NCBI RefSeq assembly: GCF_035083965.1
Contig: NC_089727.1
Coordinates: 5,399,501-5,463,500 of the forward strand
DNA: 64,000 nt
Direction of reading: 5' to 3'
Source: Branchiostoma lanceolatum
Lineage: Eukaryota; Chordata; Leptocardii; Amphioxiformes; Branchiostomatidae
Part shown: positions 10,559 through 37,372 of the stretch, one piece after another
Layout: each line of letters opens with the position of its first letter
Numbering within the stretch: position 1 is the stretch's first letter
The notes under the pieces: model-generated
The model's input: the letters and a program-made list of their open reading frames with translations, nothing else
Database searches by the model: none
What the model was told of the DNA's origin: nothing
Made by a program: the position numbers and the translations under genes

Positions 10559-13500
10559 ATGTGGAAGGCAGTGGTAACTGCAGCTGTAGCCTTTGCGCTG
10601 CTTCTCTGTCAGAGCAGCTCACTAGATAACGGACTGGCTCGGACCCCGCCCATGGGCTGGCTGGCCTGGGAGCGGTTCAGGTGCAATGTGGACTGTGTGG
10701 ACGACCCATACAACTGTATCAGGTTAGTGGGTTTTTTTTCAATGGTTATAACATATACAGTCAAACCTGTACAAGAAAACCACTCATGATCAGGGGACAG
10801 ATTATATCTGGTCTATGTGGACTGGTGGTCACTAGGGGTGGGTACCGGTACAGAAGATTCAGGTCCAGTCCAGGTCCAGGTCCAGAGGGTCAGGTCCAGG
10901 TCCGGACCTGTACCTGTACCTGATTATAGTCGTGTCTCAGTACATCATATTTTGGAGAGCGAGACACTAGTAAAGGCCTTTGTGAGTCCTACGGGTTATG
11001 TTCAAATTGTATATTAGAATTATCGGTGCATATTAATATGCAAAAAGAAAACGAAGATGTACCGAAGCATGCAACCATGTATTCAAGGTAACTTTTATCT
11101 CACAAAAGTGATTCATAGCAACATTGTTCTCCTTTGAGTACAATGTAGTTGACAACAACTATATACATTATGACCAGAATTTTCTAATCGGTCCATATGC
11201 CGGTCCACTGAATTTTTCCGGACCGGTTTTTTTGGACCGGTCCATAACAAAATACCGGTTTTGGACCGGTACACTGTACCGGTACCCACCCCTAGTGGTC
11301 ACTATAGACCAGGGCTGCCTCCAGGACTAGGGGTGGGTACCGGTACATAAAATTCAGGTCCGGTCCAGGTCCAGGTCCAGAGGGTCAGGTCCAGGTCCGG
11401 ACCTGTACCTGTACCTGATTATAGTAGTGTCGCAGTACATCATATTTTGGAGAGCGAGACACACGTAAAAGTCTCCAAACGTCAAGTCTGGAACGATATA
11501 ATTTCTTAGGTTTGCACTTTGTCTCAAAACTATAACTATACTCTCTTCGCCGTCTGTTTACTCATCCTTCAAGTGTTTCTAGATATGATTCACAGCTAAC
11601 GTTATCGAAAACGACTCGTTAATCTGCTGTTTTGTATTTTCTTAAACCAGTTATGTGGCCGCCTGCTGGTAGCCTGGTACTATGAATTTTCTAATCGGTC
11701 CATAGGCCGGTCCACTGATTTTTTACGGACCGGTTTTTTTGGACCGGTCCATTAAGAAATACCGGTTTTGTACCGGTACACGGTACCGGTACCCACCCCT
11801 ATCCAGGACCCATCCCTCCGTCCTGGGATGGAAACTTGCTTGTTGGGGCAGAAAAAAATTGTCACCGTTTGTCCAGAAAAACTTAACTTAATGATATGAA
11901 ATTGATGAAAAATGTATTTTTGTAAGCTTAAAATGACAAGTTCAACAAAGAAAGCCAACAATATGGGCTTCCAAACAATGAGTAGGACAAAATTCTGCAG
12001 TCAGCTTGGCTATAGACGGGATTCTCGATTATTGGTTCAATGGGGAAAATTATCTATGAGGGCACAAAAATGGTTACATTGACCAGGTGGTCCTTATATG
12101 TAGGTGGTCATGGGTTTGACTGTATAAGTACACTATAAGGTACATTTTTTTTCATTGGAGGAAGCTAGGTGGATGTTGATTTCAATGAAGTAACAAATTG
12201 ATGCCATGTCTCAAGATCTACATGATCACAACGAAAGAGATTCTTTGTTTACTTCCCAGTGAGCGACTCTTTATGCAGATGGCGGACCGTTTGGCAGAGG
12301 ACGGGTGGAAGGAGCTCGGGTACAACTACATCAACATAGACGACTGCTGGATGTCCATGGACAGGGACGAGCAGGGAAACCTGTACGCCAACAAGACAAG
12401 GTTCCCTAACGGCATCAAGAAGCTGGCTGACTATGTTAGTACAGGATTTCGAATAGATAATTCTAGAATTTAAATATCACTGCCATACCTATATACGTTG
12501 ATGAAGGTTAGACATCCAGGTAATAAGATACGCCAAAAATAATTACTCAAGCAACTGGATAAGATTTTGAAACAGTCTGACGTTTCAGATAGCATCCGCT
12601 ATCTTTCGTCAGTGACTGAAGAAGGATCTGGTAGAACTAGGTTTTATACCAGGAAAGATAGCGGATGCTATCTGAAACGTCTGACTGTTTCAAAATCTTA
12701 TCCAGTTGCTTGAGTAATTATTTTTGCCGTGCCATACCTATAGTTGCTACCCTTGCTTGTTACATGATCTATACTAGCTTTGGGATACCAGATTAACTTC
12801 TAAATGTCTTCATGAAGAAACATGCACGTCTAGCAAAAGACGAAATGTTCATGTAATATGTCATCTCAAAACTGTAAATTTGTCTACACATTTTACGAAG
12901 AAGGAACAGACTTCATAGATATAAATGGAATATAGCATAATATTCTGACTTGTTTTAACATGTCAGTTTTCTGATGCGTTTAGCCTATGTTGGGTATTTC
13001 TATGCTAAAAAGGTCATCGTCATCATCATAAAGTTCTTCATAAACCCAAATTTCCTTGGATGCTCACAGGTGCATTCTAAAGGCTTGAAGCTGGGGATCT
13101 ACCTGGACTTCGGTACCCACACCTGTGGAGGGTACCCCGGCTCCATCAAGTACCTGCAGAAAGATGCTGAGACCATCGCCGGCTGGGGGATCGACATGCT
13201 CAAGATGGACGGTTGCTATGCCAACGTGTCGGACATGTCTTGGGGTATGTAGCATTTGTTGTGTTCTAATCATTTTCACAAAGTCCTGAGCTTTCTACTG
13301 TTTACCAGTTGTAAAGCAGAATGTGATGGGTTAATGATCTGCATGAATGCATTTCTTACCGAAGTATGTTCTTAGGATTAATGTGTCCAAATTTCATTCA
13401 TAAAAACCTGACCACTTTCTGGCAACTAGCCCTGGAGTGCATGAGTTTGAGCGTGTGAAAAAGTGTCTTTTGATGTTGGACCCTCCCTGTAATACGACAT

Positions 13501-16500
13501 ATATGGCATGTAGTGAATATGGCATCTAATGGCTGAAGATTCCAGACTTACCAGTGATATTTTGACTACTACAGGCTATCCCGATATGGAGATGTACATG
13601 AACAAGACAGGACGACCCATCCTGTTCTCCTGCAGCTGGCCTGCTTATGCTGGGGGCATCAAGGTTGATTTTTGTCTCTACATGTAACATCTAACGTAAT
13701 TCCACCAGGGTACATAATTCCACCACCCTGAAAAGATACATACAAATAGATCTCCAACCCAACATTCCCCAGGCAGTATAATGCACTCCTGTATAACTAA
13801 ACTGTGTATACTTGGGGGGGGGGTGCTGCACTAAAGATCTTTCAAACCTGTAATTGTTTTTCCAAGTGATGGATTTATGTAACCCGGCGGATTAATATTA
13901 ATGGCGGTTAGTTAGGAACGATTCTGGCTCTTGATTGGACTAACATGCTTTTAACTAAAGCCCCTGTCACACATAGCTGACCATGGCCTCCCGACCTTCT
14001 CCAGACCATGGTTGGGAGTTAGTTGTTAGCAATGTTATCTGTGGTTAGGAGTTGGTTGGTGAGGTTGCCCACTGGTCTTTAAAAGTCGTCTGTGCCAGAC
14101 AAATTAAACTAGGGAAAGTCATAATCTTGTCAGATGCAAGTGAACTGGAGGTAGAATAGGATGGATTCCAGGCTACTCTCAACCTAGCTGGGTTGGAGAG
14201 TGGTCAGGATCAAAGTTGTAGGAAGGTCCTGAATGTGTGACAGGAACTTGATTTACCATGAGTTGCTGGCTCTTGATTGGCCAAGAGTTACTGACTCATA
14301 CCAGGCTTGCTCCTGATTGGTGAAGACTTGTCTGTTATGTCCTACTGTAAGTTAGAATGCTGAGGAGTCAATGGAGGGATCTAGCATGGTCTTTCATGTT
14401 AGCTGTTGTAAGATCACTTTCATGTACAAACATAGGTCGACTACTCTGTCCTGGGCAAACACTGCAATGCGTGGCGCAACTACGACGACATCCAGGACTC
14501 GTGGGACAGCGTCACCCACATCATTGACTGGTTCGGAGACAACCAGGATGTTCTTGCCCCCGCCGCTGGCCCCGGTCACTGGAATGACCCCGACATGGTA
14601 TGTACATTCCTATGTCAAGAAAATAACATTTTAAAATTCTGTCCAGGTGAACTATACTGCTATAGGGGACCACTGCAACATGTGGCGGAACTACGGAGAC
14701 ATCCAGGATTCGTGGGATAGCGTGACCAACATCATTGACTGGTACGGAAACAACCAGGATATCCTGGTTCCTGCCGCCGCGCCCGGGCAGTGGAACGATC
14801 CGGACATGGTGGGTGGGGGTGGTGGTGACGGGCGTGACTGCATGGACTTATTAACTAATAATGCATGTTCTCCCTAATTAGTCTACTTGAAATAGGTGTT
14901 TTCAGCTTTTGAAACTTATCAATCTAACATTCATTTCTTCTTGTCTGATGTTATATTTCTTGATGATACATGTACATTTGCTTGATACATGGTCATGACT
15001 GCATGAACTTGTCAACTACTAATGCATGTTCACATTTATTAGCAGGCTTGAAATAGATGTTTAGCTTTTGAATATTAAGAATCTAATGTTCATTTCTTCT
15101 TATTTGATGTTTTATTTCTTCACAATTTTTTTTTTTTTCACTTCTATTCATCTCTCTCTTGTTTGACTTTTAATTGATTGTTGATGAAATGATGTCAGTG
15201 AATTTGCAAATTCCTGCTTTTCAGAACTGTACAAAACTGTTTTGAATGCTGGAATGACTGTAGTTTCACCACAATATTTGTACTGACACTGCAAACATTC
15301 TGTCATCAGCTGATAGTTGGAGACTACAGTTTGAGTTACGAGGAGTCTAAAGCCCAGATGGCCATGTGGGCGATCCTGGCTGCCCCTCTCTTCATGTCCA
15401 ACGATCTCCGTTCGATCTCCCCCGAGGCCAGGACCATCCTCATGAACAAGGAGGTCATCAGGATCAGCCAGGACTCACTGGGCATGCAGGGGAGGAGAGT
15501 CATCAAGGTAGGTCATGCAAGGTTCTTCTGAATATGATTGTCAATAGGGCTGTGTACCGATACATAGAGCTGTGTACCTAAACAAATTTTAGGTACAGGT
15601 ACAGGTACAGGTACACAGGTTAAGGTACAGGTCCGGACCTGAACCTGTCCCTAAACTACTTGTTCAGAAAATGGTAGATTTTAGATAAGGACAAAGCATG
15701 TTTGAACTGGTAACAACATAATATTTAATTGTGCTAGGTATTATTTTTATGAAAACACAGATGAAAATTTGACTCCATCTTATTTTGTTACTAATAACGA
15801 GTCATTCCCACTACAAAGATGAAAATGTTGCACTGGAAAATTAAGGAAACATTCCATGGCTGTTGAAATCAGCACCATGTTGAATTTGATATTCTCCCAA
15901 AAGTATCTCTGTCATCATTGAAGACCACAGGCTACTTTCAGGTACAGGCTAGGTCTGGACTTAAAATCTCTGTACTGGCACTTGTACCTGATGTTACGTT
16001 TAGGTACACAGCCCTGTCATTGATCTGCACTTTAGATATTGCATTAGGTTGTAATTATGCTTTGAATCTTAATTTTGCTGCAATATGCTTGTATTTGTTG
16101 ATGTTGCTGCTTACAATCAAACCTGTCATTCTTCCTCTGCTTGAAATCAGGAGCACGGAATAGAAGTGTGGACGAGAGTCATAGAAAACAAGGCTTTCCC
16201 CTCGTATGCTGTGGTTTTCCTGAACAGGCGAGACGACGGGATGCCGTACAAATATTCGCTCACTCTAGACGAGATTGGGTTTGAATACAACATGGGATAT
16301 GAATTGTCAGAAGTATTCTCTGGCCAACACTATGGTCATTATGATTTGAAACGTGTTTTGACTCTGCATATCAATCCATCAGGTGTGGTTATGATATATG
16401 CTGTGCCTATGTCATAATGCTTGAACACCACAGTCCATTGTAATTGTAAGCAGGTGTTCAGTGACTGTCTTGGTGGCATTTTAGACTCAAAGTCAAATTT

Positions 16501-19500
16501 TTGTCCAATCAAGGATTATATTTCTTCATCTGTTGTGAATATTTTGTCTGGTCTAAATTGCAAAAAAAGTGTAGAAAAATCCTGTGTTTTGGTTAAGCTT
16601 TGACCGTGGTGAGTCACACTTAGACATGAATGCATTATACATCAGACTGCCTCACCCCTCCAATACCAATGGACCACTACTAACGTTATCATGTAGCAAA
16701 ATGACAGGTTGCATCGGGAGTGCATCATGGGCCAGGCTTTCATCTTGAGTAATTGATACTATGCAAATGATAACAACATAGGATTTCTTTAGACAAGACT
16801 AAAAAGTCAGAGCAAGATATTCCATCTATAAACTACATGTATCATTATTCAGGCATAGATTTTATCTAAAATTTTTTGCATGTGGGCTCATTCAGAGTGA
16901 TGTTTTTCATATCATATTTCTATCTGTTACTTTGACCACTTCTTATTCCTAGCATAGCTATTGATACTTTGTGACAATGCTCTAAAGTTGAATTATATCA
17001 TCATGCTTGAGCTTGTTTGATTTCTGCCTTTGCCTGAATGATCATTATAGTGCTTTAAATTACAGTTTTTGTTTGTAAAATAAATGAAATTGCATTATCT
17101 AAAGAGCTGATGCTTGATCAGAATATGCTTTGCAATTCTACAAGATTGTAGAAGAGTTTGTATCAATAATCTTATATCAAGACCACTTGGTTTTGGAAGC
17201 TGCAATATATTGGATGTAAAATTTATGGAAATCAGCATTAAAGATATGTTATTCAAGTGACCACCAGAATCAATGGCTGAACGAATCATTATTGTTTGCT
17301 TTGATTACTGCTCAAGACCAATGATTTTTGTGATATTCAGCTGATATAACAAGACATGAGCTAGATAGTATTAGCTATGAGTCATTCATATTATTAATCT
17401 AACAAATATGAATATTGTCTGTCCATGGAAAACTGTCCAAGATCAAATATGTTTAAGTTTTGTTGTCATCAGGGAACATGGATAGTAAAAATTCCCTGTC
17501 CTGATGATTTTGAAAGAAAGAAGACCAGCTAGTTATAGAAGTAGAGAAAGACCCCAATTTGTCAGTGTTACACATGATTGTGTAAGTAAAACTTAACACC
17601 TGATAGATCCTATAGCTGTAGAGACATTGTGTACCACAAAATGTTGAAACCAGCATATGACCTGCACAGCTGAGCCCTGACATACTTTTCAGTTGGTATG
17701 GAATTGCATATGCAAAGGGAGCTTTTGTATTGTTACTGTTGCGGTAACTGAGATTTGTGAGCAGTGTAAGATTGATCGTAGTCGTAGAACACTACATCCC
17801 TGATGTCCATGGAGGCCATTTATGAAGTTGTTTTGACCAAGCCTCATTTGGACCTTCCAGACACACAGTTAAGTTCATTAACAGTTACTGGTATTAGCAT
17901 GGCATTTTCCATTAGATTCTGTATTACATGGAAAACATTATCTACCTGCTGATTTGTGCATGCATTGGTAATATGTCCCAACATGATGTCGAAGTTATGT
18001 TCGGACATGAAAGAAACGCACCACTATTCTAAAGATTTCAAACCAATCTTAGAATGACATTTTCCCTAAAATTCTGTATTGCAGATAATTTTGATTTATC
18101 TGACTCATGCATGCATTTGTTACATGTTCGAACGAAGATCTTAAACTGCTTTTCAACATTATCTTCAAACAACTCTTAAAGATTACTGATGAAATGAATC
18201 ACACTTTTGGGCTATGCATCACAAACTGACACGACCTTTATTAATATTCAAAGGGGACCAACAAAGTGGAGACCTGGGTAAGGCAGGTCCAGACGAAGGA
18301 CACCTATGCAGTCGCCTTCCTGAACAGACGAGAGGACGGGATGCCCTATAACCACACACTGACACTGGGCAGTCTCAATCTCACCTCTACCATGGGGTAC
18401 GAGGTGGTGGATGTCTACACAAACCACCGCTATGGCCACTTCGGCTTGGACACTAAACTTACTGTCAGTATCGATCCTAATGGTGTGGTATTTGTCTATG
18501 CCTACCCGTCCAAGTGAACACACAAAGCTGTGGGCTATTGTGATGAAATATGCCAAGTTGAAGGTACATCTAGATCTGTATCACTAGCTAACATCTTACA
18601 AATTTCCCATCGCGAAATAGAATCGCTTTGACGTATTAATAAATGTTTCAGAAATATTGCACGCAAAAAGTATGCTACCCACCACGACGTTAGAGAATCT
18701 ATTTAACAGTGCCTGTGTAGAAAAGCTGTACTTCAGAAGAAATGTTTCAAATGTACTATCTCCTTAGTTTTGTTGCAATGCTTTTTTCACACTGACTTCG
18801 CATGGAAAGCAAATAAAGCACGAATAAAGAGTCTCTGTTTGTGAATCTGTTGATGTTTGTTTTAGTTGTGTCGTTACTTTTAATCCAGAGTGCTACCATC
18901 ATCTGAAAAGATGGAAGGATGCCTACTACCTTTAATGACATTAAAACAGTAAGAATGCCGAATCTCTGATGTCGTTGGATTCCTGTCATATTTGAGGTTC
19001 TTCGGCGATACACCCTCGTTTTCAGTCACCGTGCATTTTTCAGGAACCTTCCTGATAAGAACAAAAGAACAATCAGCTGAAACGAACAATTTAGATGCCT
19101 GCTTTGAAGAGTACGCTTTCAATTTGTAAAAAGGAACTTTTCATTCTTCTTGAGATTTCAAAGCAAATAATCTGCTTGCACTAAATCTGAGAAAATAAGC
19201 AATTGACAAAACGTCCTTGCAATCGCGTTTTGGCTATATTCAGTATAACTGACACGATTTCATTGACTTTGAAGGGAGACAACAAGATTGAGACATGGGT
19301 TAGACCCATTGAAAGGCAGGACACGTATGCAGTCGCCTTCCTGAACAGGCGGTCGGACGGGATCCCCTATAACCACACACTGACTCTGGGCAGTCTGAAT
19401 TTCACCTATCCCGTGGGGTACGAGGTGGTCGATGCCTTTGAATACCGCTACTACGGTCACCTAAGGCTCGTGGTCGTTTTAGAAATGACAGTTCTGCTCA

Positions 19501-22500
19501 CAAAACAAAATTTGTTATGTGTCACCAGCTGACATTATCAGGCTTCAAACTCTTGCTTTGTAAAGTTAGGAAGTTGGTTCGTATCATCCAGCATTTTGTA
19601 TTGCCGTTGCTTGCCCTACTTATAGCGAAGAAACTTTATTTGATAGAGTCAATCACCACTTAGACCGACTTCAGGTTATACAGAAACTGATATTTCCATA
19701 TGCTGCTATCATGTTCAATATTCACATAATATGTTGGTATGATTGTACACTTGATAATTGTTGTACCTACATTGAAAGTGTTCATATTTACTTAGCTATA
19801 AGTGTTTTCATTCAAGAAGATTAGTTTCATAGAGTTATTGCCAAAGCTTGCCATACTTTTTACCTTGTTCCACTGTTGCGCAATAAAGTTCATTCATAGT
19901 TTCTTAGAAGTTGTTGCCAAAGCTTGCCATACTTTTTTAATACCCGTTGTACCACTGTTGCCCAATAAAGTTCATTCATAGTATGCTATCAAAATATGGC
20001 CTCGTTACGAATAAACTTTGGATTGAAAGATACTTGAAGTTTCTCATACAGAATGATAGAATCCGTCTTTGTTCTTGGTTACTTTTATCACAGTGTGTTT
20101 TGTTAACTTTGTAATATAAAGTAAAGCTCGAATAAAGCGAGGTTGAAACATAAAAGAGTTGCTGTTCTTATTTTTAAATGTCGAACATTACAAGGGGGAT
20201 ACCAGCTTTGCCCATTCCAGTACAAGTTAAGCATGTCGCGTGTGTACATTAACTATTCAAGCCAGTTATCTTCTGTTGTAACAATTTGTTGCAAGTTATA
20301 AAAGGGGGCATGTACATCTATTTCTTATACCGTGTATCAACAATTGTTCCCTGAAGTTTTTAGCGGCATTTCTTGCGTGTTTTTTCAAGGGTGAGGACAA
20401 GATAGAGGTGTGGACGAGAGAGCTCGACGTCACATTTCTGCCGTCCTACGGGATCGCCTTCCTGAACCGACGGGCCGACGGGGAGCCGTTCAACTATACC
20501 TTAACTCTGGGAGACCTGCACTTTCAGTACATGATGGGATATGCTGTAGAGGACGTGTTTACCGGCCGTGAATACGGACACTATGACTTGTATAGAGAGC
20601 TGACAGTCAGTATCAATCCGAACGGGGTTGTTCTGCTGTACGCGTACCCGTCCAAGTAAACTCAAAGGCCACATCGTTCTCCGAATGCTGCATATAATGC
20701 CCCCCTCTCACTGGATCCGCGGCACGCTGGCGGCGTCGCTGCGGCCGATCGAATTTACAAAGCACTCAACGAATTTCATCGACACAAAACGAATCTTTTT
20801 AAGCTTTGTGTGTTTTATTCTCTTTGCGGTCATACTTCTACGTTTTGAATGATGTTCCCATACATGAAGTCAATGGTAACACCAATCAAGTTTAGGACGC
20901 AGCAACGCCGCCAGAGTGCCTCGGGTCCAGTGAGAGGGGGGCTTTAGTGACTGATATGCAGAGTCCCTACAGGGCCGTGTTGTATCTTGTCTCCTAAAAA
21001 GCTGCCTTCACGGACAGTAAATAGTAGTTGTTACTACGCCGACTTAAAATAGAATATCCTACAGCATCTTACAAGTTACTATAGTTTTATCATGTTTGCT
21101 TCATTGCACAAATTTTATTTAGAACCGTGTAGCCAACGTAGCTCTGAGACCCCGCTGCCTCATTCGAATGATATCGCCATTCATGTATTGTTTACTTACA
21201 ATAACGATAGCTAAAGGAGTATTTCTTGAATAAAGTAAGTTTGTAACACAAAGGAATATCTGTGTCTTGAATTTATTTTCAAATAAGACACGGGTTATTG
21301 AAGCTCATCATTTGCAAACGAGCCAATGCAATGGTTTGAAGTCAAGTCTTTCGAACTCTATCTTCTGTCCATTTTGCCAACACAGACACCATCTAATGAT
21401 ATAGCTTGTCCTTAAAACATTCACAACTTTATTCAAGTATGGTCACTGCAGCCTGTATTTTCAGACTCTCTGAAATCTAACGTGAACAAGTTGAACTTGA
21501 ATTCTGCAGCAAACACAATTTTCTATTTCATTCAAGGGAGACAACAAGATCGAAGTCTGGCTGAGAGACATCGAATACAGTTCGTACGGGATAGCATTCC
21601 TGAACAGGCGTACAGACGGCATGCCCTACAACTTCACCCTGACACTGCAGGACCTGAACTTCACCTACCTGAAGGGATACCACCTAGACGATCTGTATAG
21701 CGGCCAGCCTCTTGGTCATTTCGAACTAAACAGGAATCTTACTGTCAGTATGGCGCCCAACGGCGTGGTGTTGATCTATGCCTACCCGTCTGAATAAGAT
21801 GTGTATAGTAGGGAAATGTCAAGTTCAAAGGCGTGTTCATATCACAATACTGTACTGTCTTACAAATCTAACCAATATCAATGGTTGTACTTCAACTAGG
21901 CTCTATCATAAATCACAAACAGTTCCTGAATGGCAAATAGACAACGATTGAAAGATATGTGTGTTCTCTCGTACTCATGTTAAGCAGGCCTGAAACGATA
22001 TTCCGCTTACTCCGCTGCAACAACATTTGAATTTAAAAACACTTAACGTTAGACAGTATCGACGTATTCTCTGACCATCAAGCAATGCAAGAAAATAAAG
22101 TATTCTACTCCTCATTCGGCTGTGTAATCTTTATTTTTCTAGTAAGGATAGTTTGCAATAAGGGGCTATTCGTTCTTTTATCACTTGAACACTGAAGCGT
22201 GAAAATATATCAGCAAAAACCCTATTTCAGTATTTTTGAACTAGAAGCAGCGGCAACGTTCTCAACGTCTTAAGCCAACCGTGCTTCTAGATTACGAGGT
22301 TGGGACTCATATCCCGGACCACATGTCAGACTTCTAAAGTCTGTTGTAGATGTCCACCGGTCCTTCGGAAGGGCGGTTATAGTATGTTTTACTACACTTC
22401 TCGAGAAAGAGATAACTGCACGTATCTTCCTGCAGGATCATAACGGGATAGACGTGTGGACGAGGCCCATTGAATTCCCGGATATTCCCACCTACGGAGT

Positions 22501-25500
22501 CGCCTTTCTGAACAGACGGTCGGACGGGATACCTTACAACTACACCCTGACTCCGGGAGACCTCAGGCTTAAGTGCGGGTCCTGTTTAGGATATCAACTG
22601 ACCGACGTTTTCACCGGAAAGGATTACGGGCACTGCTCCTCGTCTCAAGAATTCACCGTCAGCGTCGTTCCCAACGGAGTTGTCATGGTTTATGCCGTCC
22701 CTACGTCACTGGACGTCACCTCGGACTGACGTTAATCGACCTGGCCTCAACAATAATAATGATACAAAGCGATAGCAATGCTCGTTTGCTACGTTACGTT
22801 ACATGTTTACTAGCTGCATTTGTAGGTCATGGTTTATTGATTGGCCAAACTTTTATACGAAATGCTTTCTTCATGTTGACCAAGTTTTTAGTTCATCAAA
22901 GATAATTTTGTAGGTTTCAATGAATTCACGAAATGCAATAAAATGACTCTTCTCAACATGTGTTGGTGTTGTTTTTAACGAAACATATGTACCTGCCCTT
23001 GGTGCTGATCTACCACCCCTTTGCTTTTGGAGCTATTGATTACTATACGGAATCCGCTCAACTGGGATGATAGGGTTGTCCTTCATGTAGCCCTTTTACG
23101 GAAAGTGTTCAGTACCAAGGAGAGACCCGTTAACACGTGTATGCATGTTGTGACGCATGGAGGACATGTGAAAGATGTTAAGTGACTCAACATAAGAGCT
23201 GTAAATGATTCAATAGATACAACAGTAGCATCTATCTGAACCCTATCATGAGTCTGGTTTACGAGAACGAGGCTAGGATATCGGAGTTCTAAATTCTGAT
23301 ATACACGCAATTGGTCCTTCGGAATGGAGGCTTTAGTATAAACTCTAGTATAGTATATAGTAGCATATCTAGAGAAAGGGAAAGATAACTCCATGTGTGT
23401 TCCTGCAGGATCATAACGGGATAGACGTGTGGTCGAGACCCATTGAATCCACAAAGGTTCCGTCCTACGGAGTCGCCTTCCTGAACAGACGGTCGGACGG
23501 GATACCTTACAACTACACCCTGACTCCGGGGGACCTCAACCTTACGTACGGATATGGATATCAACTGACCGACGTTTTCAGTGGACAGAGTTACGGTCAC
23601 TGCGCCCCGTTTCAAAATTTCACCGTCAGCGTCGTTCCCAACGGAGTTGTCGTGGTTTACGCCGTCCCTATGTCACTGGACGTCACCTCGGACTTGCGTT
23701 GATTAACTTGGCAGCAATATCTACCTTATGTATATGTCTGAGGTTAATAGTTGCGTATACAGATTATGGTTTATGATGAGCGGAGCTGTTGTATAAAGTG
23801 CTTTACGAATGTTGTACGTTTCCTAGTTCATCAAAGAGCCCTTTAGGTTCCAATAAATCACGAAATGCAATAAAATGTTTGTGCCTGACTTTTTTTAAAG
23901 CAAAACTAGTACTAAGACACCAAAACGAAGATCGGCACTTGTCCTTGGTGCTGATCTTCCATCCCCTTTGTTTTGGGACCAAGAATATATTCCGGTACTT
24001 TGTCACATATTGCTCTTGGGTACACTAGTGCGCTCAGCTGGGATGATACATGTGTCTTTAAAGCCTCCGTCACAAATCAAGAATTTAGCTCGGCCGACTT
24101 GTCGGCGAGCTCCAAATGGCGATTTTCGGGCGAAGTACGGCCGACGTCCTGTCGATTCTACGGGCTTCGGGCGAATTTTCGGAGCTCGGCCGACGTTCGC
24201 GGGTCACTGGAAGCTGCGCTTAAATTCAGCGAGGCCTCGGCGACGATTTTTGAACTCGCACAGCTCGTCAACAGTTTGCCCGTAGCTCGCCCGAGCAACG
24301 CCCAGCGCTCGGCCAATATTCGGGCGAGGATTTTAGACCTGATTTTTGATCGGTCGGAGGTCGCCCGAAATCTTCGACCTCGTGCGAGCCTCGCACGGGC
24401 TTTGTACAATAATCGGACGACCGTCGTCAGTGTTCCGGCCGACTCATGAAAAGTAAGGCGTGCTTCGGGCGAGCGTCTGGGCGAGCGTTGTACTGAGGTC
24501 AATGGGAGCTTGGACGGGCTCCGGCCGAACTCCTTATTGTTTATAGATAAAAGGGAACGACAGTTTGGTTTATAACATAAGATAATAACTAATACTTTAA
24601 TACATGTATTAACTAATACTGATATCAACTTGTCAAAGAATGCTGCCAAACTTTTCTAATGAAAGACGATTCAATTGCAAAGTTAGTTTTCATTGAAAAT
24701 TTTTTATAAATAAAATGTGGACACCGAAGACAATACTTCTTGTTTCTTTTTTGGTATTGGTTTGGACGTTTTAATTTATATATTAATGAGCTGAGGCTTG
24801 ACTTGACTTTTTTCCTCCACAAAATGACTACTTGAAAGTCCACTAAGTCATTATTGATCTATGTTTGCTGCCGAGACACGCCCATGCGTCTGCAAGGCGT
24901 CGATAGACTTATCAACGGTCGGCCGAAGCTCGGACGGCGTTCGCCCGAGCTTCGGTTGATCTCCATTAGGTGAAAATGCTTGGATCGGGGTTAAACGACT
25001 GATCTGTTGATTCGTGGCTCCTGCGCTAGTATTCGGATTGGTTTATGACGAAATTCCTGTTTAGATTATTATTTTCAGTGTGCCCACCCACTTCACTCAT
25101 GCCCGACAGATTTGCCACAACTCAGAAAGTAAAGTTGGTCCAAATTTGAGCTTGTTACCAGGTCAGTTGATTTTGACTTTGTCCGTGTCCAAGAGACGGT
25201 ACCGTCTTATGTGGGATTTATGATTATTAGTGTTCGACGGACGTCGCCCGAGCTCCGTTCAATTTGTGACGGGGCAGGTTTTCAGCGAATAATACGGTCG
25301 ACGCTCGGGCGAATTTGAAATTCGGCGAGCTTCCTGCGATCTACAAAATCGGCCGATGCTCGCATGAATTGTGACGCCGGCTTTATACAGCCTTTGTACG
25401 GAAAGCGTTCAGCACCAAGGAGAGACCCATTAACCTATATATGCATGTTGTGACGTATGGAGGACATGAACGCTTGCCAAAGTTATAACCACACCCTACA

Positions 25501-25805
25501 GAGTAATCCAACCATTCCTCTCCTTTCTGGATTCAAAGGACAACGGCATCGAGGTGTGGATGCGTAACCTAGGCGACGGTAACGATGGTGACATGGCAGC
25601 GGTGCTCCTGAACACACGAACGGACGGCACGCCTACCAACTACACGCTGGAGCTGAAGCGGATAGGGTTCCAGTTCCCACTAGGGTACGGCATTAGAGAC
25701 GTCTTCACCGGGCATCTGTGGCAACACGTGCAGATCAGCGAGCCCTTCACGGTTTCGATCGACCCAAGCGGCGTGGTAGCCGTGTATGCACAGGAGGTAG
25801 AGTAG
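10559..25805 (+). CDS. NAGA: Lysosomal alpha-N-acetylgalactosaminidase-like glycosidase (GH27) with alternative exons
   Basis: Constant coding exons: 10559-10722, 12260-12434, 13070-13244, 13575-13663 and 15310-15507. Exon 5 is either 14436-14597 or 14647-14808, and the last exon is one of eight between 16151 and 25805. All phases join; products would be 406-418 residues, against about 411 for human NAGA. A signal peptide (first ~22 residues) is followed by [22 protein letters not shown]. The nucleophile Asp is in LKMDGC and the acid/base Asp in WNDPDM. The substrate-pocket segment SCSWPAY has the Ser/Ala pair typical of NAGA rather than the Glu/Leu of alpha-galactosidase A, so N-acetylgalactosamine specificity is inferred. 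The family is a (beta/alpha)8 barrel plus a C-terminal beta domain and removes terminal alpha-linked sugars in lysosomes. The start is supported by the signal peptide and family length. Confidence 0.9.
10833..11294. mobile_element. hAT-like MITE, copy 1
   Basis: A 462-bp element with ends TAGGGGTGGGTACCGGTAC and its inverse, flanked by an exact 8-bp target duplication GTGGTCAC (10825-10832 and 11295-11302). The interior has GGTCCAGGTCC-type short repeats. It lies in intron 1 of the NAGA-like gene. No transposase; non-autonomous. Confidence 0.9.
11328..11801. mobile_element. hAT-like MITE, copy 2, nested in a second MITE
   Basis: The same family as copy 1, 33 bp downstream and in the same orientation. 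The ends are the same and the 8-bp target duplication is different, TCCAGGAC (11320-11327 and 11802-11809), so it is an independent insertion. The flanks (AGGGCTGCCTCCAGGAC... and ...CCATCCCTCCGTCCTGGGA) match part of the 393-517 MITE family, so it inserted into an older MITE copy. Confidence 0.88.
12494..12729. mobile_element. Inverted-repeat element with 13-bp flanking repeats
   Basis: Arms of about 85 bp (from 12531, and ending at 12729) contain CAGATAGCATCCGCTATCTTT and its inverse around a loop near 12610-12650. The whole is flanked by the direct repeat TGCCATACCTATA (12481-12493 and 12730-12742), possibly a target duplication. It lies in intron 2 of the NAGA-like gene. Confidence 0.75.
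14436..14597 (+). CDS. NAGA: NAGA-like exon 5, version a
   Basis: 162 bp (54 codons), acceptor ACATAG| and donor ATG|GTATGT, phase 0 at both ends. It encodes a barrel segment running from [18 protein letters not shown] through [10 protein letters not shown], including the catalytic acid/base Asp in WNDPDM. It follows exon 4 (13575-13663) in frame and reads into exon 6 (15310). The GPGH form before WNDPDM is the usual one in human NAGA. Confidence 0.93.
14647..14808 (+). CDS. NAGA: NAGA-like exon 5, version b (alternative to a)
   Basis: A second copy of exon 5 with identical length (162 bp), phase (0-0) and splice positions: acceptor GTCCAG| and donor ATG|GTGGGT. It encodes [18 protein letters not shown] through [10 protein letters not shown] and keeps the catalytic Asp. 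It differs from version a at about a dozen residues, including His to Gln beside the WNDPDM motif. Only 49 bp separate the donor of a from this acceptor, which is very short for an animal intron. Joining a to b would duplicate a barrel segment. Mutually exclusive use is therefore inferred, not shown. Confidence 0.88.
14832..15125. repeat. Two-copy tandem repeat of ~135 bp in NAGA intron 5
   Basis: The segment from GTGACTGCATGGACTTATTA (14835 on) to about 14975 is repeated, diverged, from about 14993 to 15125. It lies directly downstream of exon 5b and may be a relic of the local duplication that copied exon 5. Confidence 0.7.
15547..16015. mobile_element. Decayed inverted-repeat element (hAT-like)
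   Basis: Ends AGGGCTGTGTACC and GGTACACAGCCCT are inverted. The interior has GGTACAGGTACAGG runs like those of the 10.8-kb MITEs. It occupies most of the intron between exon 6 and the first terminal exon. No clean target duplication is seen; old copy. Confidence 0.6.
16151..16417 (+). CDS. NAGA: NAGA-like terminal exon 7a (C-terminal beta domain)
   Basis: The first of eight terminal exons. Acceptor GAAATCAG|, phase 0, joins exon 6 ending at 15507. It encodes [20 protein letters not shown]... ending ...[14 protein letters not shown] and a stop. This matches the last module of human NAGA (IEVYMRPLS... [13 protein letters not shown]), the C-terminal antiparallel beta domain. A polyadenylation signal AATAAA lies at 17079-17084. 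It is nearest to exon 6 and so is the best candidate for the default isoform (409 residues). Confidence 0.93.
   Translation, partial: EHGIEVWTRVIENKAFPSYAVVFLNRRDDGMPYKYSLTLDEIGFEYNMGYELSEVFSGQHYGHYDLKRVLTLHINPSGVVMIYAVPMS
18254..18517 (+). CDS. NAGA: NAGA-like terminal exon 7b
   Basis: Acceptor TTCAAAG|, phase 0, 88 codons including the stop. It encodes [20 protein letters not shown]... through [18 protein letters not shown] and ends [16 protein letters not shown]. The full beta domain is kept and AATAAA occurs at 18812-18817 and 18823-18828. It resembles exon 7c most closely. No copies of exons 1-6 precede it, so it can only be read by splicing from the shared upstream exons or be silent. 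Confidence 0.87.
   Translation, partial: GTNKVETWVRQVQTKDTYAVAFLNRREDGMPYNHTLTLGSLNLTSTMGYEVVDVYTNHRYGHFGLDTKLTVSIDPNGVVFVYAYPSK
19275..19532 (+). CDS. NAGA: NAGA-like terminal exon 7c, altered C-terminus
   Basis: Acceptor TTTGAAG|, phase 0, 86 codons with the stop. It starts [20 protein letters not shown] and follows 7b closely to [12 protein letters not shown]. From there the sequence no longer matches: the last strands (normally S-I-x-P-N-G-V-V-x-x-Y-A) are replaced by unrelated residues ending LLCVTS. AATAAA occurs at 19882-19887 and again in a tandem copy at 19964-19969. It is either a decaying terminal exon or an isoform with a remodelled tail. Confidence 0.7.
   Translation, partial: GDNKIETWVRPIERQDTYAVAFLNRRSDGIPYNHTLTLGSLNFTYPVGYEVVDAFEYRYYGHLRLVVVLEMTVLLTKQNLLCVTS
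19840..19982 (+). repeat. Tandemly duplicated 3'-end segment with two AATAAA sites
   Basis: A unit of about 80 bp (TTGCCAAAGCTTGCCATACTTTTT...CAATAAAGTTCATTCATAG) is present twice, so the 3' end of terminal exon 7c has two near-identical polyadenylation signals at 19882 and 19964. Confidence 0.85.
20390..20659 (+). CDS. NAGA: NAGA-like terminal exon 7d
   Basis: Acceptor TTTTTCAAG|, phase 0, 90 codons with the stop. It encodes [20 protein letters not shown]..., then [20 protein letters not shown], and ends [16 protein letters not shown]. The beta domain is intact, with AATAAA at 21229-21234. Its 3'UTR is interrupted by the inverted-repeat element at 20699-20942. Confidence 0.88.
   Translation, partial: GEDKIEVWTRELDVTFLPSYGIAFLNRRADGEPFNYTLTLGDLHFQYMMGYAVEDVFTGREYGHYDLYRELTVSINPNGVVLLYAYPSK
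20699..20942. mobile_element. Inverted-repeat element (MITE) in the 7d 3' region
   Basis: The ends GCCCCCCTCTCACTGGA and TCCAGTGAGAGGGGGGC are inverted. Pairing continues inward through CGGCACGCTGGCGGCGT and ACGCCGCCAGAGTGCC with mismatches. No ORF. Target duplication not resolved. Confidence 0.8.
21537..21797 (+). CDS. NAGA: NAGA-like terminal exon 7e
   Basis: Acceptor CATTCAAG|, phase 0, 87 codons with the stop. It encodes [20 protein letters not shown]..., then [19 protein letters not shown], and ends [16 protein letters not shown]. There is no internal Met near the start, so it is readable only when spliced. AATAAA at 22094-22099. The beta domain is intact. It is closest in style to 7d and 7b. 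Confidence 0.88.
   Translation, partial: GDNKIEVWLRDIEYSSYGIAFLNRRTDGMPYNFTLTLQDLNFTYLKGYHLDDLYSGQPLGHFELNRNLTVSMAPNGVVLIYAYPSE
22436..22729 (+). CDS. NAGA: NAGA-like terminal exon 7f
   Basis: Acceptor TTCCTGCAG|, phase 0, 98 codons with the stop. It encodes [20 protein letters not shown]..., carries an extra CGSC segment before LGYQLTDVF, and ends [15 protein letters not shown] plus a short DVTSD tail. AATAAA at 22937-22942. It forms a recently duplicated pair with 7g, including intron sequence upstream of both. Confidence 0.88.
   Translation, partial: DHNGIDVWTRPIEFPDIPTYGVAFLNRRSDGIPYNYTLTPGDLRLKCGSCLGYQLTDVFTGKDYGHCSSSQEFTVSVVPNGVVMVYAVPTSLDVTSD
23409..23702 (+). CDS. NAGA: NAGA-like terminal exon 7g
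   Basis: Acceptor TTCCTGCAG|, phase 0, 98 codons with the stop. It encodes [20 protein letters not shown]... and ends [15 protein letters not shown] plus a DVTSD-type tail. It is close to 7f but lacks the CGSC cysteines ([11 protein letters not shown] instead). AATAAA at 23852-23857 and 23869-23874. The reading frame is preserved although the exon is a late duplicate, which suggests coding use. Confidence 0.88.
   Translation, partial: DHNGIDVWSRPIESTKVPSYGVAFLNRRSDGIPYNYTLTPGDLNLTYGYGYQLTDVFSGQSYGHCAPFQNFTVSVVPNGVVVVYAVPMSLDVTSDLR
24060..25386. mobile_element. GC-rich 1.3-kb inverted-repeat element inside the exon array
   Basis: Ends AAGCCTCCGTCACAA and TTGTGACGCCGGCTT are inverted, bordered by TA on both sides. 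The interior is packed with short TCGGCCGA / TCGGGCGA motifs near both ends and an AT-rich centre (24540-24840). The flanks 24025-24058 and 25387-25470 together match a continuous stretch at 23050-23170, so it inserted into one copy of a duplicated segment. No transposase ORF. Confidence 0.7.
25539..25805 (+). CDS. NAGA: NAGA-like terminal exon 7h (most diverged)
   Basis: Acceptor ATTCAAAG|, phase 0, 89 codons with the stop. It encodes [20 protein letters not shown]..., then [20 protein letters not shown], and ends [16 protein letters not shown]. The otherwise conserved FLNRR core is LLNTR here. AATAAA at 25923-25928, followed at once by the convergent VCBP gene. It is the last unit of the array and has an acidic tail. 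Confidence 0.85.
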   Translation, partial: DNGIEVWMRNLGDGNDGDMAAVLLNTRTDGTPTNYTLELKRIGFQFPLGYGIRDVFTGHLWQHVQISEPFTVSIDPSGVVAVYAQEVE

Positions 25806-26265
25806 CATTAGTAGAGAACGGTTGTGTCTTTCTCTACCCCATTGGACAACATGTCAGTTATCACTTATATTGTAGAATAACAGATTTAGGTGTTAACTGC
25901 TTATAACACGGTATGAAAACCAAATAAAGAATTATGTATAATCAGTCCTTCCAAGACTGGTAAAAATGCTGTTTTGAAATAATTACAGGAGAATGCTTTT
26001 CAGTCTTAAATGAATTGTGCTTTATTGATGTTGAATTGTGCTGTATTGATGTTGAATTCAGATGTTCTGCAGCAACTGATACGCATAGACATGTCGACAA
26101 CGTTTAACAGGATGATCTACAGCCTTTAAGTACCAGATAATACAGAGAACATTCAATTAGCCATGACAAGCTAGCCTGTAGGGACCAAAGCGTATGGCCC
26201 TTCCCTAATATCAAAACCGCGAGGGATGAATGTTGTCACAGGCAAGATAGCAGTGGAAGGGTCAT

Positions 26266-29200
26266 TTACAGGCAGATGACGTTGTTTGCCCAGTCACACA
26301 GCTGTAGTTCCTGGTTGAAGACCAGTCCGGCCGGACAGGTGTTGGTGCCGTACAGCAGCCCGCCCGAGCACGTGTAGAACTGGGCACAGTCGGCGGGGTG
26401 CTGATACCTCCCGTCCGCCTTACCGCCACAGGTCGGCTCGGTACCCGGGTCTGGTAACAGGAGAGCATGAAAGTATTGTCTATCAAGGCCGAAAGTCGCT
26501 GCTCGTTTATTGGAGAAACATCTAGCACCCAGGCTTTCCACTAGAGGCTGAGACAGCGCCGCGACCGCTCGACAGATATCTTAACGAATTTTATATTCAC
26601 AATTAGATAAAGAACGATTTTTTAAAACGTTTTGTGTGTTTTCTTGTCTTTTAAATCATACTTGTACATCTTGCGTCATTGTCAAGTTATGAAATCAAGG
26701 GTGACACAAATCTAATTTTGGTCGCCTGGCAGTCGCTCAGCGATCGCTGTCAGTGGAAAGAGGGCACGTCGGTATGAACCAGGGAATAGGAAGTGCAGTT
26801 CTATTATGTTATGGTCTCCCAACATCATTGTTTTAAGGGTAGACCTTGGGGGAAATAGAGAAATAAACCTACCGTTGACGATGATGACAACAGACTGAGC
26901 GTCCCGGTTCAGAGGGCCCAGGTTAGAGTACACCTCGGAGATGTCGGGGGCGCACCAGTACCGGCCGGCGTCGCTAGGGCGGATATCGGTGATGGTCAGG
27001 GTCGGGGTGAAGGAGCCAGACCCGTCCGCAGCTGGGTAACCGGGGAACAGGGGGATCATCACGAGGAGATCATCACATTCAGAAGGTCGAGATTCTCACA
27101 ATACATTTGTGAAAGCTTGCTACATTTATGAAGGTTAAATATCAAGCTAAATAATGCTTAAAGACAAGTCAATTTCTACAACTATATAAGATACAGAGAT
27201 TATGAAAGGTATCGAAGTTGTTGAGAGAAAAGATGTTTGAATTCAAAGTCTTACAAAATATGTGAAAGTTTGCCTTTAACGTACCCAGGGAAACCCTTCC
27301 ATCATAGTTGGGGGAGATAGTGATGTTTTCCGGTTCCGGTCCCATCCACACGGCGGACTTGTGAATGACAGTCTCGTAACCGTCACAGCGTCCTCCTGCA
27401 GACGGTTCGATACAAAAGTGAAAAGGAACGAGTGAGTGAAAAATAAAGAACGAATGAATGAATGGTGATCTGAATAAGTGCGCAATCGTACCGCTCGAGC
27501 TAGTCGGTTAAGATTGGTGATCTAAATAAGTGTGCAATCGTACAACTCGACTAGTCGGTTACGTGGTCTAGACGATCCATTCACCGCCCGAACTCCAGAC
27601 GCCCTCTCTCAAGCATGCAATGATTAGGCACTTCATCATTGAATTCGTATCATTTTGACAGCGCATATTGATACAGCTAGCGAAGTGCGTGGGTGTGTCC
27701 ACGTGTAATGTGTTAGCACGAGGAGAAAACTTCTGCAAAGTACCTTGAGTACAGCCCGCCGGCCCTTTGACCCAGAGAATGGAAGCTTCGCGGCCGCTTG
27801 TTCCCGTACAGTCGAGCCGAGCTGTTCCGCCGGCCGTCACGCGGACTGGCGTTTTGTCCAGGGTTACTTGCGACAGACGGGTCGGTGGGTCGTAACCTGG
27901 AAATCAAGCATATTGGCTTACTGTATACAGCGATTGAAATATGGCACTCCTGTTCGAAAGTTTTTTTTTTTTATTCACTATCAAAACAGAAATAACTTTA
28001 CAAAGTTATTTCTGTAGATAGCCTATTGCACAAAACTCATCATGTTAGAATAACGCACGATACCGTGCAAAATACTCACCCAACTTGTACCAGAAGAGGA
28101 CAGACTCCTCGTCCGTTCCAAACTCGTCCGGTTGTTCCTCGTTCGTGACCCGACACCAGTATCGGCCCCAATCGTCGAACTTCGTGTCGGTCAGTACAAG
28201 GGTGGCCTGATTACTAGACGGTACACTGACCCGGCCTGCGAACTCGGGGTGGACGTAGACTTCTCCTGACGAACTCCGCTTGTAGACCACCTGTCGGTCT
28301 GCATCGGCGAACACTCCCTTCAGGGTAATAAATGGACACCGTACAAAAGCACCACTGAGATGAGGTGGGTATGTCTCAACGTCGGCGCTTTATCTAAATT
28401 CTAACTTCACTTAAGCTCAAAATGTGCACATCTGCAAATGGAAATTTCTGCTCAGTGTTCAACATGTTAACAATGAGAAAGCATCATGTTTGATATAGCA
28501 AACGTTAAGTTGGAGACATTACGGAGGAGACAAATCATGCCTCTTTCTGTGGGTATGTTGCCGTTCAAACACAGCATTTCTGAAAATAACGTTACCTTCA
28601 TTTTTGTGTGTGTCGTATTTGCTTCTTTTCTGCATGTTCACGCGTGCATATTATTTTTAAAATTACAAATATAAGTTTAAAAATTACAAATGTAAGCTAT
28701 TACAAATGTGCGTTTCATAAATCTTACTAACCCTTAGCCAGGTGATTGTAGGAGGAGTGGCTGAGGCAGGTGAGATGGAATATTCACACGTGAGCTCTAT
28801 CCTGTTCACCCAGGTAGGGTCTCCCGGGCGGGGCCACATCACCAACCAGCCGCCTCGATCCGGCACCGTCACGGTCGTGATAGTCGCCGCATCTAAACGT
28901 GTGTTGTGTATGTATGGGTTAAGGTTATCCGTTAACTTGTATAATCTTTTATCTAGAAGATTTGTGGCTTGCTCCTGTCATCCTACTTCTTTCTGTCAGT
29001 CTTGCACCTCTTTAAGTTGTGAGGTGAGGTGCCCATTAAACATGTTAAAAAGCAGACAATTTTGAAAAGGACCTCACGAAAGAAGTTGAAAAGAAGAAAT
29101 AAGCAAAAGGAAGAAAAGTGGCGGAAACTAAACGTTTGTCTGGAGGCGGGTGTAAAATCATCTTAGATACGTCAGCTGTTTTTTTTAAGTAAATGAGAAA

Positions 29201-36456: not shown

Positions 36457-37372
36457 TGCTAATGAACCGTCCGGGTATACACAAACTGATTTTCGTGCTT
36501 TCTCCTGCTTCTCTGTCGCAACCCAGCAAATGTTCTAGGTCTTCAGAAGTGTCTGCACTGCGTCCTTAGTATCCTGTGTGATCGTGAATTCCTGGAGGAC
36601 TTAAGGCTTTTCATTCAGTCACTGCTAAGAACCTTCCTCGCCTTGTCCCGAGAACATCAACAGTGATAATCACATGAACACGAGTGGTTGATACTGGAGT
36701 TGGGATGAATATCAGATTAAGTCGTCTGTCAGCTTCGAAATTAGGGAAATGATTTAGGACAAATCGCAAAAAGGGGAACATAATTATCGATGGTAGCTTG
36801 GGGCTACAAGGGAAAGAGGATGTTCATTTGTATAGAAACTAAACAGACAATTGTGGTGGGCATCCCGTGACGGTGCATAGCCGACGATATGTAGCATTCA
36901 GGGCACTTTTTCACAAAAATAGTAATACATTACATATCCCACTGATCAGCAATTAAGTGAACTTTCTTGGAAACAGAGTTTATTTATGATGAAACCTTGT
37001 GTACAAAACGGACCCGGGAATCTGTCAGTGTTTTTAAAGAATAGAATAGTATATGACACTCCCATCTTTGAGAAATCCCCTAACACTTTTTTTTATTTGT
37101 CCTGCGGCAATTCCTCAATGTCCACAAATTAGTTAGCACGAGGGCATTGTCCAGAGGCAGTGACTCTTGCTCAGATGTTAGTACCGTTGTCATCTTGAAA
37201 ATACCCGATACCGGCAGTTCTTACCAGTGAATTCAAGCATGATCCAAGGTACATGTATGTGTTGAAGATACTACAGATCACTTCTGAAACGTTTTCTGAG
37301 TTTTGGCAAATAGGACGGGAGAAAGAGCACACAGTGGTCTTGCGTGGACGCTAATCGATCGGATCATTAGCC
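36457..37372. promoter_or_regulatory. Shared 5' region between the two divergent receptor kinase genes
   Basis: A 916-bp spacer between start codons on opposite strands. Short stretches next to each ATG are similar (GGAGAAAG...CATTAGCMATGGTGAC), which marks the edge of the inverted duplication. The rest shows no similarity between arms. No TATA box or other site is called with confidence; a shared promoter is inferred from position only. Confidence 0.5.

Follow-up and report, generated by a model that had tools for sequence, protein, structure and literature searches.

The 64-kb stretch of Branchiostoma lanceolatum DNA analyzed here, referred to as the window, contains a NAGA-type GH27 gene. 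Exons 1–6 occupy 10559–15507 and are followed by eight tandem copies of the last exon, which we call tails 7a–7h (Table 1). When exons 1–4, 5a, 6 and 7a are spliced together, the product equals the public B. lanceolatum protein P0002 (isoform X4) letter for letter, and the junctions of that form are thereby confirmed. In tblastn searches with the gene's own exons, exons 1–4 and exon 6 were each found at one place in the window and the tail at eight. The further weak matches, with E values of 0.06 or worse, are at chance level. A sequence-only reading of this stretch had held that no copies of exons 1–6 lie among the tails, and the searches bear that out. The idea that the tails belong to separate genes whose cores have been lost nearby was rejected, there being no second core in the 64 kb. 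At 10831–11801, intron 1 contains repeats in two pairs, one of 149 nt (94% identical) and one of 118 nt (93%); a single mobile or repeat element has probably left these copies.

Table 1. Exons of the NAGA-type gene and the short intron between exons 5a and 5b, in window positions.
Feature	Positions	Strand	Description	Basis
Exon 1	10559..10722	+	coding part, signal peptide	spliced product identical to P0002
Exon 2	12260..12434	+		spliced product identical to P0002
Exon 3	13070..13244	+	KMDGC motif; counterpart varies in Amphiura models	spliced product identical to P0002
Exon 4	13575..13663	+	FSCSWPAY	spliced product identical to P0002
Exon 5a	14436..14597	+	alternative exon, 162 nt, phase 0	tblastn; included in P0002
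Intron 5a/5b	14598..14646	+	49 nt, separates 5a and 5b	
Exon 5b	14647..14808	+	alternative exon, 162 nt, phase 0	48/54 residues as in hybrid isoform X3
Exon 6	15310..15507	+	common donor for tails, after base 15507	spliced product identical to P0002
Tail 7a	16151..16417	+	88 aa, no sequon	frame, Pfam; part of P0002
Tail 7b	18254..18517	+	87 aa, two sequons	frame, Pfam
Tail 7c	19275..19532	+	85 aa, two sequons; open but domain end lost	frame, Pfam, DNA comparison
Tail 7d	20390..20659	+	89 aa, one sequon	frame, Pfam; B. floridae X3 counterpart 84/89
Tail 7e	21537..21797	+	86 aa, three sequons	frame, Pfam; B. floridae C3YS95 counterpart 77/86
Tail 7f	22436..22729	+	97 aa, one sequon; young pair with 7g	frame, Pfam, tree
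Tail 7g	23409..23702	+	97 aa, three sequons; young pair with 7f	frame, Pfam, tree
Tail 7h	25539..25805	+	88 aa, one sequon	frame, Pfam; hybrid X3 and X4 counterpart 64/88

All eight tails start right after an AG at a homologous codon, are in phase 0 with exon 6, and run through an open frame of 85 to 97 codons to a stop. Ranked against the window's AG sites, pyrimidine content lies at percentiles 81–99 upstream of the tail acceptors and at percentiles 52–96 upstream of the internal acceptors (2, 3, 4, 5a, 5b and 6). Each tail also passes the Pfam cut-off for Melibiase_2_C. The match of 7c covers profile positions 10–64 of 87, and those of the other seven reach position 87. The DNA similarity of 7c to 7b fades after GHL, at the same place where the Pfam match of 7c ends. 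Tail 7c is damaged, with its last strands gone, which leaves seven intact tails. The eight last-exon copies read from the sequence alone were therefore correct in position, acceptor, phase 0, frame and stop, and overstated in that 7c has lost the end of the domain. An 88-nt stretch before 7g (23081–23168) recurs before 7h (25381–25468) at 85% identity, though these two exons are far apart in sequence.

Exon 5 is also present in two versions. They have 74% protein identity (dS 1.43, dN 0.14) and phase 0 at both ends. Isoforms X3 and X4 of a floridae × belcheri hybrid differ in only 11 residues, all within the exon 5 segment, and these segments match 5b of the window in 48 of 54 residues and 5a in 49 of 54, respectively. 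Among the seven predicted Branchiostoma models examined, six have 5a, one has 5b and none has both, so use of 5b is indicated by a predicted public isoform. By length, phase and this either-or inclusion, 5a and 5b fit a mutually exclusive pair. In vertebrates, splicing needs a minimum spacing between donor and branch point. By analogy, the 49-nt intron would leave too little room between them, so 5a and 5b should exclude each other; this suggests that steric exclusion keeps the two from being joined. With seven intact tails, the pair would allow up to 14 intact combinations. The earlier reading had dealt with a variable site at the 3′ end of the gene and had overlooked the choice between 5a and 5b. 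The difference between the two versions includes the residue beside what we take to be the acid/base Asp, which is Gly in 5b and Asp in 5a, and this replacement may tune activity. Two gastropod NAGA-like models, Biomphalaria pfeifferi P0023 and Plakobranchus ocellatus P0150, contain the exon 5 segment twice, exactly 54 residues apart, as 5a and 5b would be if joined. They differ from the amphioxus gene in being protein models with both copies included. Possibly, the repeat in P0023 and P0150 is a mutually exclusive pair that was modelled as both included.

Convergent with the tail array, on the minus strand at about 26262–28977, is a VCBP-like gene encoding a V-type Ig domain and a chitin-binding domain. 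Its best solved-structure match is VCBP3 (2fbo, E 5e-10), and CBM_14 is matched at E 5e-16. VCBPs are described as expressed in the digestive tract of amphioxus, where cells use phagocytosis to digest food (PMC6015868). The text of that article contains no word starting with galactos, and a VCBP genomics paper (PMC2632668) contains none starting with galactosaminidase or galactosidase. A digestive or gut-immune role for the NAGA-type enzyme would be a guess. Further along, a 630-codon open frame on the minus strand (29715–31604) encodes a reverse transcriptase domain (RVT_1, E 3.6e-38). It is followed by two divergent long open frames of 973 codons (33616–36534, minus) and 945 codons (37355–40189, plus), in which tyrosine-kinase-like and Ig domains occur; their cadherin matches fall below the cut-off.

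Enzyme identity and selection on the tails

P0002 matches Melibiase_2 at E 2.5e-142 and Melibiase_2_C at E 1.7e-16 in Pfam. Its KMDGC, RNYDD and SCSWPAY motifs align with human NAGA, and we take them to carry the catalytic Asp residues and the Ser/Ala of the NAGA specificity loop, the last of these presumably being the FSCSWPAY of exon 4. The predicted structure of P0007, the form with 5b and 7h, has a mean pLDDT of 89.2, and its ten-residue blocks from 341 on score 94–97 except for two at 83 and 75. Against solved NAGA structures, this model has TM scores, by target length, of 0.95 (1ktb_A) and 0.96 (3h53_A). By domains, motifs and fold, the gene product is predicted to be a GH27 alpha-N-acetylgalactosaminidase, with a predicted activity on alpha-GalNAc. 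The exon 6/7 joint falls after residue 344 of the P0007 model. As this point lies within the beta domain's first strand, the tail supplies the remaining strands.

Taken together, the tails are under purifying selection. In 24 of the 28 tail pairs, the synonymous difference is at least 0.64 per site, which is near saturation, and replacement differences are 0.11–0.54. With the topology fixed by hand, and with the end of 7c masked because it is not homologous, a codon model over 89 columns yields an omega of 0.194 for the tails as a set (2dlnL 142 versus neutral). A comparison of dN/dS among the copies had been proposed with the sequence-only reading, and its outcome is divided. On single branches, an omega of 1 is rejected for 7a, 7d, 7e and 7h (p 0.01, 2e-6, 4e-6 and 3e-5, with the 7h branch at its length bound), and neutrality is not singly excluded for 7b, 7c, 7f and 7g (p 0.12, 0.30, 0.28 and 0.34). 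Since the branches of 7b, 7f and 7g are short and give little power, a non-significant test there is no evidence of decay. Tails 7f and 7g show more replacement than the other tails; their omegas are 13.5 and 5.1 (2dlnL 10 and 13 versus one omega), values not significantly above 1. In this young pair, selection would appear to be either relaxed or diversifying.

Counterparts in other Branchiostoma, echinoderms and hemichordates

Predicted Branchiostoma models point to use of four of the tails. They carry 7a in B. lanceolatum (identical), 7d and 7e in B. floridae, 7a in B. belcheri, and 7a and 7h in the floridae × belcheri hybrid. The best matches in other species agree with the window in 80 of 88 residues for 7a (B. 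belcheri), 84 of 89 for 7d and 77 of 86 for 7e (both B. floridae), and 64 of 88 for 7h (hybrid). Identity between species is thus 94% for 7d, 90% for 7e and 73% for 7h; it is 93 to 97% for the cores, so 7h is clearly evolving faster than the core. No model with 7b, 7c, 7f or 7g was seen among the matches listed, where 90% clusters could hide isoforms.

The protein searches returned the best 120 of about 7,990 scored candidates each, clustered at 90% identity in a way that hides isoforms. Even so, predicted models of echinoderms show the same design. In Antedon mediterranea, models X1–X5 are identical over their first 322 residues and then continue into five different tails. The seven Amphiura filiformis rows among the matches listed have six distinct tails on two kinds of core, with isoform numbers up to X18. 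The two kinds differ at residues 111–168, the counterpart of amphioxus exon 3 (113–171, with KMDGC). One exon 3 version is found in P0128, P0127, P0133 and P0136 and the other in P0038, P0028 and P0034, each combined with different tails, and the one tail that X8 shares with X18 follows a different version of exon 3 in each. Asterias amurensis X2 and X5 have 318 residues in common, as do Patiria X1 and X3; in the tree, the core of A. rubens X4 equals that of X5. The Apostichopus models X2 and X3 have 202 residues in common, followed by about one-residue differences in core and in tail. Lytechinus and Diadema have near-identical cores with different tails, a comparison that is between species only. 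Rows with other cores (A. rubens X2, Patiria X2 and three unlabelled rows from Asterias, Patiria and Acanthaster) indicate that separate genes also exist in sea stars. P0121 and P0130, which have two different tail classes, come from 2.2 kb contigs that hold the whole reading frame and so are probably cDNA.

In all alignment rows taken as tails, the joint between core and tail falls at the aligned position. The first tree was made of 63 tails from rows hand-picked among the matches, 3 of 66 having been left out (one truncated, two identical). Tails 7a–7g and their counterparts form one clade (98/95), and 7h stands apart, unplaced. Tails from a single echinoderm are spread over tail types that several echinoderm classes have in common. 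One such group unites Antedon X1, Amphiura X5, Apostichopus X2 and Diadema antillarum X1 (94/91). Monophyly was tested on 58 tails (eight left out) and 91 columns, with groups chosen after the first tree. A single clade was rejected for the five Antedon tails (p 7e-5), the six Amphiura tails (p 3e-5), all echinoderm tails (p 0.014) and the hemichordate tails (p 0.0099), and barely so for echinoderm and hemichordate tails together (p 0.045). A single clade was not rejected for the amphioxus tails (p 0.43). With only 91 columns, the deep forks are weak. Since the tails within an echinoderm species do not form a single clade, several tail classes look older than crown echinoderms, as far as predicted models can tell. 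In the hemichordate Glandiceps, the core of P0012 is sister to that of Ptychodera (97/83) and its tail groups with echinoderm tails (97/93), a hint that Glandiceps may have a tail array. Several arthropods and fishes also have more than one row among the matches listed, judging from names alone.

Choice of tail and its alternatives

Given the anatomy, phase, frames and selection described above, we consider it very probable that this NAGA-type GH27 gene works and that its pre-mRNA is finished off with a single exon from a tandem set of alternative terminal exons. Exons 1–6 would encode the signal peptide and the catalytic barrel and would also begin the C-terminal beta domain, contributing its first strand. 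Splicing would then link the donor of exon 6 to one tail acceptor, and that tail would bring the rest of the domain, a stop and its own 3′ end. Upstream, either 5a or 5b would be taken, the short intron probably blocking the joining of both. The choice of tail would then lie in splicing to an acceptor that competes with cleavage at an earlier poly(A) site. Each of the eight tails has an AATAAA downstream, ahead of the acceptor that comes next or, in the case of 7h, no more than 1500 nt on; the nearest lies 118 to 662 nt past the stop. Composition leads one to expect 0.9–3.6 A[AT]TAAA per stretch, so the presence of a signal after each tail is only weak evidence; the first one after 7a is the one 662 nt away and has no GT-rich sequel. 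No sign of RNA pairing as a guide of tail choice was found. When the intron that follows exon 6 was scanned, in a crude way, for duplexes with the stretches before the tails, the best dock was 2.8 kcal/mol below its control (−2.8) and an unrelated stretch reached −3.7, and no 7-, 8- or 9-mer is common to at least four of the eight upstream stretches.

The earlier claim of one core with selectable C-terminal domains is supported in part. Predicted isoforms agree with it for 7a, 7d, 7e and 7h, as do the echinoderm models. It falls short for 7c, which is damaged, and for 7b, 7c, 7f and 7g, which have neither a model among the matches listed nor a significant branch test. It could well be, though we stop just short of expecting it, that the array is in a mixed state in which 7a, 7d, 7e and 7h are old and functional and 7b, 7c, 7f and 7g are young, decaying or unused. 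Such a state is compatible with alternative terminal exons and narrows that explanation. The selection tests and the predicted models among the matches listed show exactly that split, and the damage to 7c agrees with it. On the other side, 7b, 7f and 7g each keep an intact frame, acceptor and domain, the tests on their short branches have little power, and isoforms within 90% clusters could carry them.

Returning to the alternative terminal exons, what the tails do has to be considered. The specificity loop lies in shared exon 4, so one sugar specificity is expected for all forms. The tails differ in surface and in sequons (0 to 3, with counts unchanged in the available orthologues of 7a, 7d, 7e and 7h), so the likeliest effect would be on glycosylation and thereby on sorting, secretion, stability or partners. 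An unlikely alternative is that tail choice alters substrate specificity, as the N-terminal halves of UGT1A do. It could draw on the divergence of the seven intact tails, in which just 19 of 89 columns are invariant, and on the changed residue in 5b beside the presumed acid/base Asp; the placement of the loop in a shared exon argues against it, as does the C-terminal domain, which is not known to line the active site in NAGA and GLA structures. To our knowledge, the purpose of the GH27 C-terminal beta domain is not well settled.

That 7b–7h are relics of local tandem duplication, with 7a alone in use, we regard as very unlikely. The state of 7c and the failure of 7b, 7c, 7f and 7g to reject neutrality singly are what relics would show, but 7d, 7e and 7h do reject it and recur in models of other species at the identities given above. 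Stop-free frames in seven tails are also improbable under drift: the probability that all seven intact frames would be stop-free after 0.5 changes per site without selection is about 7e-10, in a calculation that counts substitutions only and ignores indels. Finally, that the multi-tail models are gene-prediction chimaeras of separate tandem genes is hardly credible. Predictors do make such joins, the joints of B. floridae C3YS95 before exon 5 and before the tail are irregular, and some sea-star rows carry other cores, but the amphioxus window has one set of exons 1–4 and 6 and the five Antedon models have an identical 322-residue core.

Relation to known systems

Alternative C-terminal ends on one N-terminal part are known from other protein families, as in Drosophila lola and mod(mdg4), the alternative 3′ exons of an Anopheles GST, and the tails of acetylcholinesterase. 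Within the family, the vertebrate enzymes NAGA and GLA have the GH27 fold in common with the amphioxus protein, and chicken 1ktb and human NAGA (4do4, 3h53) are its top structure and sequence matches. The four vertebrate rows in the trees have one terminal domain, unlike the amphioxus array.

The nearest systems in organization are Drosophila pip, a sulfotransferase, and PGRP-LC, which have tandem homologous terminal exons used one per transcript (PMC9013439). As in the amphioxus gene, these exons lie behind a shared 5′ part. Pip is itself an enzyme, with eight clusters, and is cited there as an example of duplicated 3′ UTR exons. The two differ from the amphioxus gene in belonging to other protein families and in that the choice depends on competing RNA structures (PMC9013439), of which the amphioxus gene shows no sign. 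Neither a relation to echinoderms nor an additional alternative barrel exon belongs to these cases as that source presents them. UGT1A resembles the amphioxus gene in being an enzyme with a constant and an exchangeable part built from tandem exons, and it is its mirror image in that the exchangeable part is the first exon, which has a promoter of its own and binds substrate (PMC9013439). By analogy with pip and PGRP-LC, the amphioxus array would be of a known kind, that of tandem alternative terminal exons. Four features seem new: that it occurs in this enzyme family, that it is spread over both amphioxus and echinoderms, that the tail classes are so old, and that an alternative barrel exon is combined with it. 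In the open-licence literature, we found no paper on alternative tails of this enzyme in echinoderms or Branchiostoma, which is weak evidence since most subscription journals lie outside it. The databases already hold such isoform models, so the new part is seeing the pattern.

A wider reading can be offered tentatively, as a possibility that we hold with some doubt. An exchangeable-tail NAGA may date back to the ancestor that chordates share with ambulacrarians and may have been lost toward vertebrates and tunicates; splicing would swap the tail together with one barrel exon, which is exon 5 in amphioxus and exon 3 in Amphiura, keeping one sugar specificity and varying glycan number and surface.

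In the literature searched, we have not found whole-domain exchange by alternative last exons described for this lysosomal-type glycosidase family, which includes the human disease enzymes NAGA and GLA. A gene that varies just the GH27 C-terminal beta domain would be a natural experiment on the role of that domain. Given the same design in the echinoderm models, this mix-and-match enzyme seems to have persisted over a very long span of time.
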